A DNA stretch of 64,000 nucleotides, from the NCBI GenBank assembly GCA_026168605.1, contig JAPFDX010000001.1:124001-188000 (forward strand), given 5' to 3'. The notes under the pieces were generated by a model that had not been told where the DNA came from, did not search any database, and saw nothing but the letters and a program-made list of their open reading frames with translations. This DNA comes from Roseburia sp. (GTDB taxonomy: Bacteria > Bacillota > Clostridia > Lachnospirales > Lachnospiraceae). Every line of letters begins with the position of its first letter. Within the stretch, counting starts at the first letter, position 1. The position numbers and the translations under genes were made by a program. Below are positions 9,808 to 26,320 of this stretch, in pieces.

Positions 9808-10818
9808 ATGGCTTTATTTGAATCATATGAAAGAAGAATTCCACAGATCAACGCTGTGTTGAATAGTTATGGAATCAGCTCCATCGAAGAAGCTGAGAAG
9901 ATCACAAAAGACGCTGGACTTGACGTATACGATCAGGTCAAGAAAATCCAGCCGATCTGTTTTGAGAACGCGTGCTGGGCTTACATCGTAGGCGCTGCGA
10001 TCGCGATCAAGAAGGGATGCACAAAGGCTTCCGACGCTGCCGCAGCGATCGGCGAGGGTCTTCAGGCATTCTGTATTCCGGGTTCCGTTGCAGACCACAG
10101 AAAGGTTGGTCTTGGTCACGGTAACCTCGGCAAGATGCTCTTGGAGGAGGAGACAGAGTGCTTCTGCTTTTTGGCAGGTCATGAGTCCTTCGCAGCCGCT
10201 GAGGGTGCGATTGGTATCGCAGAGAAGGCAAATAAGGTGCGTCAGAAACCGCTTCGCGTGGTGTTAAACGGTCTTGGAAAGGATGCAGCGCAGATCATTT
10301 CCCGTATCAACGGTTTTACCTTTGTTGAGACAAAGTACGATTACAAGGAAGCAAAGTTAAACGTGGTATATGAGAAGGCATACTCTGACGGACTCCGCGC
10401 GACTGTAAAATGCTACGGCGCAGACGACGTGCAGGAGGGTGTTGCGATCATGCACCATGAGAACGTTGGCGTATCTATCACAGGTAACTCCACGAACCCG
10501 ACACGTTTCCAGCATCCGGTAGCAGGTACATACAAGAAAGAATGTATCGAGCAGGGTAAGAAATACTTTTCCGTAGCATCCGGCGGCGGTACAGGACGTA
10601 CCCTTCACCCGGACAACATGGCTGCAGGTCCTGCTTCCTACGGTATGACAGACACGATGGGACGTATGCACTCTGACGCACAGTTTGCCGGTTCTTCTTC
10701 CGTACCGGCTCACGTAGAGATGATGGGTCTGATCGGCGCAGGCAACAACCCGATGGTCGGAATGACTGTTGCTGTTGCTGTGGCCATTGAGGAAGCTCAT
10801 AAGGAAGGCAAGTTCTAG
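9808..10818 (+). CDS. GGGtGRT protein (uncharacterised conserved family)
   Basis: The start is ATG 9808, with AAAGGAG upstream, giving 336 residues. The family-defining motif is visible as SGGGTGRTLHPDN at about residue 257. The family is named for that motif and has no established function. Other conserved-looking stretches are CWAYIVGAAIAIKKG and GSVADHRKVGLGHGNLG, glycine- and histidine-rich and possibly ligand-binding. The gene is 19 bases after the Fe-S scaffold gene, so the two form an operon and are likely to act together. Confidence 0.85.
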   Translation: MALFESYERRIPQINAVLNSYGISSIEEAEKITKDAGLDVYDQVKKIQPICFENACWAYIVGAAIAIKKGCTKASDAAAAIGEGLQAFCIPGSVADHRKVGLGHGNLGKMLLEEETECFCFLAGHESFAAAEGAIGIAEKANKVRQKPLRVVLNGLGKDAAQIISRINGFTFVETKYDYKEAKLNVVYEKAYSDGLRATVKCYGADDVQEGVAIMHHENVGVSITGNSTNPTRFQHPVAGTYKKECIEQGKKYFSVASGGGTGRTLHPDNMAAGPASYGMTDTMGRMHSDAQFAGSSSVPAHVEMMGLIGAGNNPMVGMTVAVAVAIEEAHKEGKF

Positions 10819-10875
10819 GAACTGTCCATCTGTATCAGAGTTGAGGATGCATTTTATGACAGAAGTCGCAGGGCG

Positions 10876-10904
10876 TTGACTTTTTGCATATGATAATGTA
10901 TACT
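10876..10904 (+). promoter_or_regulatory. Strong sigma-A promoter of an orphan transcript
   Basis: TTGACT (10876-10881) and TATACT (10899-10904) with a 17-base spacer. No protein gene follows on this strand before a terminator about 110 bases downstream. Confidence 0.7.
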
Positions 10905-10910
10905 TTACTT

Positions 10911-11046
10911 AGAAAAAGAAGATGCTATGGTCGGAACGGCGACCTTAAATCCGTTTCCATTGGTCGGGATGAAGACCTAAAATTCATTCCCATTACAGAG
11001 TAAACTGTTAAAAGTCAAAAAGGGTGACTGTGGTCACCCTTTTTTG
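10911..11046 (+). ncRNA. Candidate small RNA with two tandem covarying hairpins
   Basis: A canonical promoter precedes and a perfect terminator ends a stretch of about 135 bases with no credible gene. Inside it, two adjacent 33-base units (10929-10961 and 10962-10994) each fold into a stem with the loop GACCT(T/A)AAA. Between the units the stems differ by three compensatory pair changes (A-T to G-C, C-G to T-A, G-C to A-T), while the loop differs at one base. That pattern is expected of selected RNA structure. A 17-codon reading frame (MVGTATLNPFPLVGMKT) crosses the units but lacks a good ribosome site. It matches no RNA family I can name. Transcript ends are predicted. Confidence 0.6.
11016..11046 (+). 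terminator. Rho-independent terminator of the small RNA
   Basis: AGGGTGAC-TGTG-GTCACCCT is a perfect 8-base stem flanked by A5 and T5, extendable to GTC...GAC outside. Confidence 0.85.
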
Positions 11047-11225
11047 ACTTTATAGGAAATTTCTCAAATTGTCAGAAATAGTGTATAATGAATAGGAAAT
11101 AAAAAATGAAATGACAAAAGAGCGAATGGGTAGATTCGCCATGACGTTGTTTATGAAGTTTTTTGTTTTGGTTTAGGAGAGCTGCACTATCTGACTATGG
11201 AGAAAGAATTATTATGGGCATGGAG

Positions 11226-12350
11226 TTATCCATATCCCATAACCTTTCGGTATTGTTCAAATAGTGCAGTTTTTTTATGGTAAACTTCTAAAACCAACAT
11301 AGAAGTACCACACTCGGAACAGCAGAGAGGGTCGTATCCGAAAGAGAGCAGAATGGAGTGGCGCCAGTTCTGAACAGAACGCAGGAAACGTTGCTTTTCA
11401 GCAGAAATGCATTTACGAAGATTTTTTTCCTGTTTATGATGTTTTGCATATATTCCATAGTAGCGAAGCATTTTGAAATGTTTTTCGGGGATGTGGACAA
11501 TAAGTTTCTGGATGAAGTCCAAAGCAGGAATGGTTTCAGTAACAGTTTTGCTGTCTTCGTGTCTGGTGTAATGAAAGGTTACATTTTCGCCGTCATAATT
11601 ATCAATACGCGATGTAGTAATGACAGGTCTGCCGAGGTACCGGCTGATGTATTTAATGGTAACATCAGGAGAGCAGAGATTTGGCTTTGCACGAACATAA
11701 AAACCGTCGGCGTGTTTTGTGTACATTTCATTTTTAACTTTACGGAAAGATGGACCGGTGCAGGAAACAAGCTTTTCAAGCAGCACTTTGCGAAAGGCAT
11801 TACGAAGGAATTTATAATCAAAGTGTTTCATAGGACGCCAGGGAGTGATGCTGCCAGCCCCGCCCTCGGAGATGAGGGCATGGATATGGGGATTCCACTT
11901 TAAGTCACGTCCAAAGGTGTGAAGAACGCAGACCAGTCCGGGGGTAAAGTTTTCAGTTTTATTCATTTTAGAAAACATACGAAGGACAACGTCGCGGACA
12001 GAATGAAATAAACAGTTTAAGAGAGTTCTGTCTTTGAGAAAATAAATGCGGAGTTCTTCGGGGATAGTGAAAACACAATGACGATGAACACAGGCAACAA
12101 GCCTGCAGGACATATGAAAAGAACGAAGCTGGTTGTATTTGTTTCCACAGGAAGGACAAAAACGGTTTTTACAGCGAAAGGGAACAAATTTAAGATTCCC
12201 ACAGTGAGGACAGCCATACATGGCACCACCGTGAGAAGGGTCACCACAATGGATCATCCTGTTGACATTTTCAATGACGGCAGGACGTGGATGGAGTTCG
12301 TAAATGATATGTTCATAATAATCAGTAAAAATGGATTGTAATATATTCAT
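11226..12350 (-). CDS. IS91-family (HUH, Y2) transposase
   Basis: A full-length protein of 374 residues. The N-terminus has a zinc-binding domain with Cys35, Cys47, Cys50, Cys60, Cys65 and Cys68. The rolling-circle nuclease domain follows, with the metal-binding HIH at residues 155-157 (NPHIHALISEGG) and the two tyrosines Tyr234 and Tyr238 in YISRYLG. All expected catalytic residues are present, so it may be active. It replicates single-stranded DNA from one element end. No frameshift is seen. It lies next to a decayed GH13 gene, whose 5' part it may have displaced. Confidence 0.9.
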   Translation of the reverse strand: MNILQSIFTDYYEHIIYELHPRPAVIENVNRMIHCGDPSHGGAMYGCPHCGNLKFVPFRCKNRFCPSCGNKYNQLRSFHMSCRLVACVHRHCVFTIPEELRIYFLKDRTLLNCLFHSVRDVVLRMFSKMNKTENFTPGLVCVLHTFGRDLKWNPHIHALISEGGAGSITPWRPMKHFDYKFLRNAFRKVLLEKLVSCTGPSFRKVKNEMYTKHADGFYVRAKPNLCSPDVTIKYISRYLGRPVITTSRIDNYDGENVTFHYTRHEDSKTVTETIPALDFIQKLIVHIPEKHFKMLRYYGIYAKHHKQEKNLRKCISAEKQRFLRSVQNWRHSILLSFGYDPLCCSECGTSMLVLEVYHKKTALFEQYRKVMGYG

Positions 12351-12392
12351 AATAGAATTTTACAATAAAGAAAGACACAAGAAAACCCCTTC

Positions 12393-12444
12393 CCCTCATG
12401 AATGAGGGGCTGGGGGAGTTGAGAGTGTCGAAGACACTTTTTTA
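12393..12444. repeat. Two hairpins at the promoter-proximal end of the IS91 element
   Basis: CCCCTCAT-GA-ATGAGGGG (about 12393-12410) is followed by AGTGTC-GAA-GACACT and T6 (12424-12443). The second hairpin looks like a terminator on the plus strand. Terminal hairpins are typical of IS91-type ends. Confidence 0.6.
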
Positions 12445-12458
12445 TAGAGTATTATAAT

Positions 12459-13575
<1,117 letters not shown>

Positions 13576-25840: not shown

Positions 25841-25912
25841 CAGTTCGTAGGGGAATCGAACCCCTGTTTCCGCCGTGAGAGGGCGGTGTCTTAACCGCTT
25901 GACCAACGAACC
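25841..25912 (-). tRNA. tRNA-Glu (anticodon CUC), minus copy
   Basis: The reverse strand folds as a 72-base cloverleaf. The acceptor GGTTCGT pairs with ACGAACT (one G-U), the anticodon arm CCGCC-CTCTCAC-GGCGG gives anticodon CUC, and the T arm contains GGTTCGATTCC. CCA is not encoded. It differs at one base from the plus-strand copy (GACACCGCC against GACGCCGCC). Confidence 0.93.
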
Positions 25913-26248: not shown

Positions 26249-26320
26249 GGTTCGTTGGTCAAGCGGTTAAGACGCCGCCCTCTCACGGCGGAAACAGGGG
26301 TTCGATTCCCCTACGAACTG
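26249..26320 (+). tRNA. tRNA-Glu (anticodon CUC), plus copy
   Basis: A 72-base cloverleaf with acceptor GGTTCGT/ACGAACT, anticodon loop CTCTCAC (anticodon CUC) and T-arm GGTTCGATTCC. It is oriented opposite to the copy at 25841-25912, so the pair is divergent. A terminator follows within 30 bases. Confidence 0.94.

Follow-up and report, generated by a model that had tools for sequence, protein, structure and literature searches.

What is the role of a short structured RNA that carries its own promoter and terminator and has no gene of its own? This question is raised by a locus in Roseburia sp. (assembly GCA_026168605.1, contig JAPFDX010000001.1, positions 124,001 to 188,000), a stretch of 64,000 nucleotides referred to here as the window, in which the initial annotation had described a promoter, two alike 33-nucleotide (nt) units and a terminator, without a credible gene. 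Promoter and units are indeed present in the sequence, and no open reading frame (ORF) of at least 60 amino acids (aa) overlaps the interval. We consider it quite likely that this RNA belongs to a type III-like toxin-antitoxin module as its antitoxin half, with a PBECR4 protein as the toxin, and that the copy in the window is a solitary antitoxin, which could protect the cell even now or be a recent relic. The pseudoknots, the layout, the linkage and the lack of a PBECR4 match in the window genome are established by the sequences themselves. The element consists of the following features:

10876..10904, plus strand: promoter TTGACT-17-TATACT, sigma-70-type, from a promoter scan
10911..11051, plus strand: predicted small RNA of about 135-140 nt, its start inferred from the -10 box
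10929..10961, plus strand: pseudoknot unit 1, with stem S1 at 10929-10932/10941-10944, stem S2 at 10933-10939/10951-10958 (one bulged T) and an A-rich loop at 10945-10950
10962..10994, plus strand: pseudoknot unit 2, with S1 at 10962-10965/10974-10977, S2 at 10966-10972/10984-10991 (one bulged T) and an A-rich loop at 10978-10983
10995..11008, plus strand: small third hairpin ACAG-AGTAAA-CTGT, part of the element and conserved in most relatives, its outer pair failing in 7/22
11011..11051, plus strand: intrinsic terminator, an inverted repeat with GGGTGAC tgtg GTCACCC TTTTTT inside a longer stem, present in the minimum-energy fold

Overlooked in the initial annotation was that the GGTC 5' of each stem is complementary to the GACC in each loop; therefore each unit is an H-type pseudoknot whose first loop is almost nil, with GGTC followed by one stem strand, GACC, the A-rich loop and the other stem strand. 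Judged by computed covariation, it is an antitoxin-type repeat folding as an H-type pseudoknot. The two units follow each other in tandem with a period of 33 nt, and the three pairs said to have changed on both sides between them do so: A-T to G-C at 7/28, C-G to T-A at 9/25 and G-C to A-T at 11/23. The folding energy of the stretch corresponds to z = -3.9, with 0/200 shuffles folding as well. The minimum-energy program, which cannot draw pseudoknots, gave each unit one helix (GGTC/GACC for unit 1, the longer stem for unit 2), and it also recovered the annotated terminator at 11011-11051, which was missing from the list of a simple terminator scan.

Covariation was assessed in alignment A3, which holds 44 of the 47 distinct units, as unit 1 of L060, unit 1 of L067 and unit 3 of L068 (L numbers denote loci, G numbers genomes), all with unusual loop lengths, were excluded before counting. 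Standard pairs fill 96.3% of the pair cells of both stems, as opposed to only 34.9-54.3% in slid registers of the same alignment, and changes on both sides occur in 8 of the 11 pairs. Shuffles of A3 reached the observed value in 0/500 cases for four of five measures and in 25/500 for the fifth, the number of pair types; such shuffle tests are inflated by related sequences, and the slid control preserves relatedness. Aligned as whole elements, 22 sequences gave 96.0% standard pairs versus 28.4-55.6% when slid. The outer pair of S1 alone appears among the 47 distinct units as G-C (30), A-T (7), T-A (5), C-G (1), wobble (3) and mismatch (1), and L071 has a GAAC/GTTC version of S1. Both stems thus covary, with slid controls far lower, and the selected RNA structure proposed earlier is borne out. 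The accompanying proposal of a protein- or mRNA-binding element in two doses survives in one half: protein binding is likely, given that the homologues are linked to one protein family, whereas the loop, including the mRNA-pairing candidate sequence TTTAGGTC, is probably not free for contacts, since the pseudoknot takes up its GACC in pairing. A decayed coding repeat is unlikely, since the interval has no ORF and both stems covary. The window element has no match in Rfam 15 at gathering score (best E = 0.15 below it), and none to the drum RNA family (RF02958) over 43 bits.

What accompanies this RNA elsewhere? A DNA search of 60 genomes returned one relative, within the genus (G016), which is 83% identical across 82 bases of the query. 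When 397 genomes of the family were screened with a tandem pattern, 6 carried the element, the window's own genome among them, and the reversed control pattern matched 0 times; four viral contigs were matched as well, of which L042 was judged by eye to be a high-GC chance hit. Downstream of the element, six of nine other loci (L033-L036, L038, L039) have a terminator, then a ribosome-binding site and a conserved ORF, truncated in L033, which Pfam assigns to PBECR4 (PF18813; 59-63.5 bits in the first three scanned, cut-off 27). The type III layout of promoter, tandem RNA repeats, Rho-independent terminator and toxin gene is found in these relatives. An alignment of five PBECR4 proteins, scanned against 84,980 genomes, each from a different species, returned 34 loci, and direct inspection placed the RNA upstream on the same strand in 31 of them, with promoters and terminators recognised by eye. 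Twenty-nine carry two or three units, L071 has one clear unit and L063 is cut by the contig end. These loci are not all independent, as L054 and L055 are identical upstream and L043, L044, L045 and L068 had already been met by the tandem pattern. The RNA model R1 scores the same 31/34 loci, a result that is partly circular because 16 of the 22 R1 sequences come from those loci. The three loci without RNA (L070, L074, L076) all have broken or partial genes, L076 showing a degraded unit. Among the 31, the gene is interrupted by stops in L050, L053 and L069 and looks truncated in L051 and L073; next to the broken toxin genes of L050, L053, L069 and L033, the RNA is intact.

R1 had 0 matches in 22 drum/PBECR4 loci and 0 in the 29 other loci of the genus site discussed below. 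Its application to the 397 family genomes, a homologue search that the initial annotation had proposed, did yield relatives: the RNA is present in 11 genomes, with PBECR4 directly downstream in 7 of these, one truncated (L102). The designation as an orphan holds for the window copy and fails for the family, where most homologues found lie directly upstream of a PBECR4 gene. Promoter, units and terminator of the window copy align with six relatives, five of them toxin-bearing; TTGA and TGTATA of the promoter are invariant in 7/7, and the outer S1 pair of unit 1 is G-C in the window and A-T in 4/6 relatives. Relative to the L057 RNA there are five base differences, by our reading one compensated pair, single substitutions in a linker and in a loop, and one change that creates a pair in hairpin 3, and the terminator stem has changed on both sides (GGGTGAC/GTCACCC in the window versus GGATGAC/GTCATCC in L057). 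A GC-rich block (GAAACCTGTGAGGCCTGCGACCGGGGG...) is common to L004, where it stands after the element, and L043, where it stands upstream of the promoter.

The linked gene, of about 200 aa, exceeds the Pfam cut-off in 8/8 relatives scanned (PF18813, 53.6-68.9 bits versus 27, E 4.7e-14 to 9.5e-19). H55 and T139 are invariant in 26/26 relatives with uninterrupted frames, and from PF18813 and this invariant pair the protein is predicted to be an endoribonuclease. In an AlphaFold2 model (predicted local distance difference test 90.2, predicted template modelling score 0.84), H55 lies in helix 50-57 and T139 in strand 138-143. For BECR RNases PMC5512222 gives a His/Thr pair, with which H55/T139 are compatible, and a catalytic role of the two residues may be supposed. 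No toxin of the ToxN/CptN/TenpN families was recognised: Pfam did not report the ToxN family for these proteins, and solved structures searched by sequence contained no relative and no ToxN or CptN chain. No PADLOC family matches more than 1/26 members (best E 0.0029). Long C-terminal extensions occur in L055, L057 and L063; L054, L055 and L063 run to 528 aa, and L057, which has an HD domain, to 377 aa. PF18813 was matched in 2/299 genomes of a phylum draw versus 71/397 in the window's family. The window type of PBECR4 had zero matches in phage or plasmid records, and protein scans of viral contigs returned one relative among 52 stretches.

Is the association of PBECR4 with an upstream RNA confined to this pseudoknot? 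Two distant PBECR4 genes each have a drum RNA upstream (L078, 52.3 bits; L079, 43.0 bits). A drum search found 20 loci in 15/291 class genomes (L094 below the 43-bit cut-off), 10 of the 20 with a PBECR4-like gene downstream; the Pfam cut-off was exceeded by 7/7 drum-linked proteins tested (L094 as a fragment), and the assignment of L082, L085 and L086 follows from their resemblance to L083. Drum stands before a terminator directly upstream of PBECR4 in L080, L081, L083, L090, L091, L092, L154, L155, L161 and others. From the 71 family genomes matched by PF18813, the best-scoring 30 loci were examined, and drum or a second kind of repeat, GTTG-[GA]-NNNN-CAAC-A-rich-N'N'N'N' in tandem, lies upstream at 29 of them. 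The first 20 divide into 10 with drum and 10 with the repeats, and the last 10 into 7 with drum, 2 with repeats (L178, L179) and L181, where none was seen in a contig that offers only 139 bases before the match. This evidence is independent of the window's RNA because these loci belong to other PBECR4 subfamilies than the window type. At the repeat loci (L156-L160, L162, L165, L168, L169, L171, L178, L179), four bases of the first unit pair with four after the A-run in 12/12, a shift of one base being allowed in this count (CAGG/CCTG, CGGA/TCCG, CAGA/TCTG, GGAG/CTCC, AGAG/CTCT, and CGGG/TCCG with one wobble); for the second unit, the pattern found the partner near the 5' end in 7/12, all 7 fully paired. 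The S2 strands of these repeats thus compensate each other from locus to locus, and the predicted topology is that of the window's pseudoknots.

The drum-type PBECR4 gave 21 matches in plasmid records and none in phage records, and 0/269 in the viral-contig protein scan; three of the 21 plasmid records were opened, and drum is upstream in 3/3 (46.4-51.8 bits; L184-L186, Enterococcus and Streptococcus plasmids). The profiles of window-type and drum-type PBECR4 resemble each other modestly (probability 67.7, E 4.9e-5, 72 columns in the N-terminal part). Genome G976 has six drum RNAs (L083, L095-L099), five at loci without PBECR4 within 450 nt, and on the Enterococcus plasmid of L185 the drum-PBECR4 pair has an annotated AbiH family gene as its neighbour.

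What, then, has become of the toxin at the window locus? The site continues as follows:

11052..11225, plus strand: place of the ribosome-binding site and PBECR4 gene in relatives, with neither gene nor remnant detected
11226..12350, minus strand: IS91-family transposase gene (Y2_Tnp), single copy in the genome

The window genome is 99.77% complete in 50 contigs and holds the RNA as a single copy, the only second match being the terminator's own complement. PBECR4 had no match in it at E up to 1, with a Lactococcus lactis control matched, and no toxin gene or remnant was detected at 11052..11225; the best remnant match within 10800-13000 had E 0.45. The best whole-window match (59333-59088, E 0.001, 32 queries) is regarded as chance because it falls inside an open frame of 169 codons, which we take to encode a Cu/Zn superoxide dismutase-like protein. 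A ToxN partner (PF13958) was likewise not found in the genome, a weak negative as the control matched nowhere either. The toxin gene is, as far as the sequence goes, gone or never came, while promoter, both pseudoknots and terminator are intact. The IS91-family gene may have replaced it; being single copy, this element has ends that cannot be set from other copies. The end of the gene upstream of the RNA, presumably of the GGGtGRT family, was matched in 31/40 genus genomes, and in the 30 such loci compared, RNA and transposase occur only in the window's own, 27 of the 29 others showing sequence past the gene. Because the RNA is absent from 29/29 other genus loci of the site, it is most simply a lineage-specific acquisition. 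A second promoter-like site, TTCTCA-17-TATAAT, lies at window 11061-11089, past the terminator and before the IS91-family gene; no gene clearly follows it. Elsewhere in the window are a TwoAYGGAY RNA (RF01731; 25537-25702) and two tRNA genes (25841-25912, 26249-26320).

The window copy is not alone in lacking a toxin. Among the family genomes with R1 RNA and without PBECR4 downstream, L109 has a seemingly decayed gene start, and L101, L110 and the window have none; the L110 genome (G264) has five PBECR4 matches elsewhere. L101 keeps promoter, terminator and, with one S1 mismatch, the structure, which is also kept in L004, where no PBECR4 is nearby. In viral contigs, which in IMG/VR are predicted viral and may in part be prophage, 12 loci score with R1, the pattern matches L112, L113, L119 and L120 being unconfirmed by this model. 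PBECR4 is present in L039, L115 and L116 (the last cut by the locus end), and a decayed start was seen by eye in L114; the PBECR4 hidden Markov model had no match in L040, L041, L111, L117, L118, L121, L122 and L123; among these, the element of L117 recurs in L123, and the sequence of L122 stops 52 bases past its copy, placing its downstream side out of view. Second units are poorer in L121 and L122. The L040 copy sits among tRNA genes, and those of L111, L118 and L123 lie between phage genes with no clear terminator. These toxin-less viral copies resemble antitoxin mimics. At L122:11228-11469, a drum-like RNA, whose 34.2 bits (E 1.7e-4) fall short of the 43 cut-off, is followed head to tail by the units and then by a DUF3800-XI RNA (63.8 bits), with a tRNA upstream, a possible decoy array. 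On the large viral contig of L040 (75-5198), a ROOL RNA is accompanied by a tRNA cluster that includes the pseudoknot pair.

How might such a module operate? In its complete form, a single promoter would drive the tandem pseudoknots; most transcripts would end at the terminator, leaving the RNA in excess, and read-through past it would give the PBECR4 protein, a predicted endoribonuclease. The pseudoknot units would bind this protein and keep it inactive, possibly after the protein has cut the repeats apart, and the solitary window RNA could give the cell immunity to PBECR4 toxins that mobile elements bring in. The RNA excess, the direct inhibition and the activity in trans are modelled on type III systems (PMC5086642, PMC4627078) and on AbiF (PMC12373285). 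Several points weigh against this reading. Toxicity, binding, processing and expression of the module are all inferred, and any present function of the window copy, which has no partner toxin, is hypothetical. The protein query was built from RNA-linked loci, and R1 adds, to the 16 sequences that it takes from the 34 loci, a 17th, L036, with the same sequence as L045. Two S2 positions fail in 6/22 (pair 8/29) and 4/22 relatives, as does the outer pair of the third hairpin in 7/22. In the model, H55 belongs to the second helix, whereas PMC5512222 speaks of an N-terminal helix, and a ToxN-like fold is excluded at the level of family search only. As to drum, 10/20 of its loci have no PBECR4 within 450 nt; five of the ten (L095-L099) come from a single genome, and in L099 the sequence runs only 64 bases past the drum.

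The main alternative is a cis-acting leader, in which the pseudoknots would respond to a ligand or to their own protein and thereby set the level of read-through into the PBECR4 gene; the copy in the window would then be a leader without its gene. This would suit the order RNA, terminator, gene of the relatives, and small pseudoknots do occur in riboswitches; however, a purely cis-acting leader accounts poorly for copies that have a promoter and a terminator and lack the toxin (window, L101), and for those in viral contigs that lie among tRNAs or between genes, and three distinct RNAs in one slot before one protein family speak against it too, so that we hold it improbable. A trans-acting regulatory RNA that pairs with mRNAs via its loops would agree with the RNA's own promoter and terminator and with the conserved A-rich loop, but the GACC of this loop pairs, and covaries, with GGTC, and the linkage is to one protein family; this explanation appears very unlikely. 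Compatible at the family level with an antitoxin is the view that the window copy is a mere relic of such a module, without present function. No toxin in the genome, the adjacent IS91-family gene and the absence of the RNA from the other genus loci make this nearly an even prospect, although promoter, both units and terminator are intact and other toxin-less copies (L004, L101) retain their structure. The window copy is here read as a solitary antitoxin because the toxin is absent while promoter, pseudoknots and terminator are intact. With slightly more conviction than doubt, we extend the antitoxin reading to PBECR4 nucleases as a large superfamily, so far unrecognised, of toxins that are inhibited by RNA, for which there would be three or more families of antitoxin RNA (the window's tandem pseudoknot, drum and the GTTG/CAAC tandem pseudoknots), in which phages would carry RNA decoys and the window RNA would be a solitary immunity RNA.

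The RNA-and-PBECR4 gene pairs are apparently an undescribed family. A PBECR4/RNA antitoxin system is not described in the open PubMed Central literature searched, a search outside which most subscription papers and preprints fall, and no paper in that open literature treats PBECR4 by name. Drum was reportedly defined in a 2017 paper by Weinberg. For drum, the excerpts of PMC7657543 and PMC8191799 give structure only and state no function, and the PBECR literature, including PMC5512222, mentions no RNA antitoxin in the parts available. PMC8040213 deals with RNAs upstream of ToxN and lists 3161 candidate RNAs, which may include some of those found here. Action of an RNA antitoxin on the toxin protein itself is known from ToxN-like toxins and, as a more recent case, from AbiF (PMC12373285). 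If our reading is true, these would be joined by an unrelated family of predicted RNases, which has pseudoknot antitoxins and is matched in 71/397 genomes of the window's family; drum RNA, without a stated function in the literature searched, would gain a concrete, testable role; and the viral toxin-less copies suggest that RNA mimicry of antitoxins, as demonstrated for phage phiTE, may be commoner.

How does the module compare with known systems? Its layout of promoter, repeats, terminator and toxin gene, with pseudoknot antitoxin repeats, is that of type III systems (PMC5086642) and is shared with ToxIN, AbiQ and TenpIN, from which it differs in the toxin family, Pfam giving PBECR4 and no ToxN. 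CptIN of Eubacterium rectale likewise has a promoter, about two tandem repeats, a terminator and a toxin gene, and its repeat is an H-type pseudoknot with a one-base first loop and an A-rich second loop (PMC4627078). In contrast, CptN resembles ToxN/Kid, the CptI unit measures 45 nt as opposed to mostly 32-33 nt here, and the window element has no Rfam match. AbiF with the RCd22 RNA of Clostridioides difficile is likewise a non-ToxN toxin preceded by a pair of structured RNA motifs (33 and 35 nt), and these motifs are reported to neutralise the AbiF protein in cis and in trans; the protein, however, is of the Abi_2/AbiD/F kind, and the RCd22 motifs are described as hairpins, not pseudoknots (PMC12373285). 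Drum shares the position upstream of PBECR4 genes with a terminator in between, although the window element does not match RF02958. The pseudo-ToxI of phage phiTE parallels the viral copies as phage-borne antitoxin-like repeats without a toxin, experimentally tested there (PMC3475682) and known from sequence alone here. Thus, by analogy, the PBECR4 module is one that would work like a type III system, yet lies outside ToxIN, CptIN and TenpIN because its toxin belongs to another sequence family.
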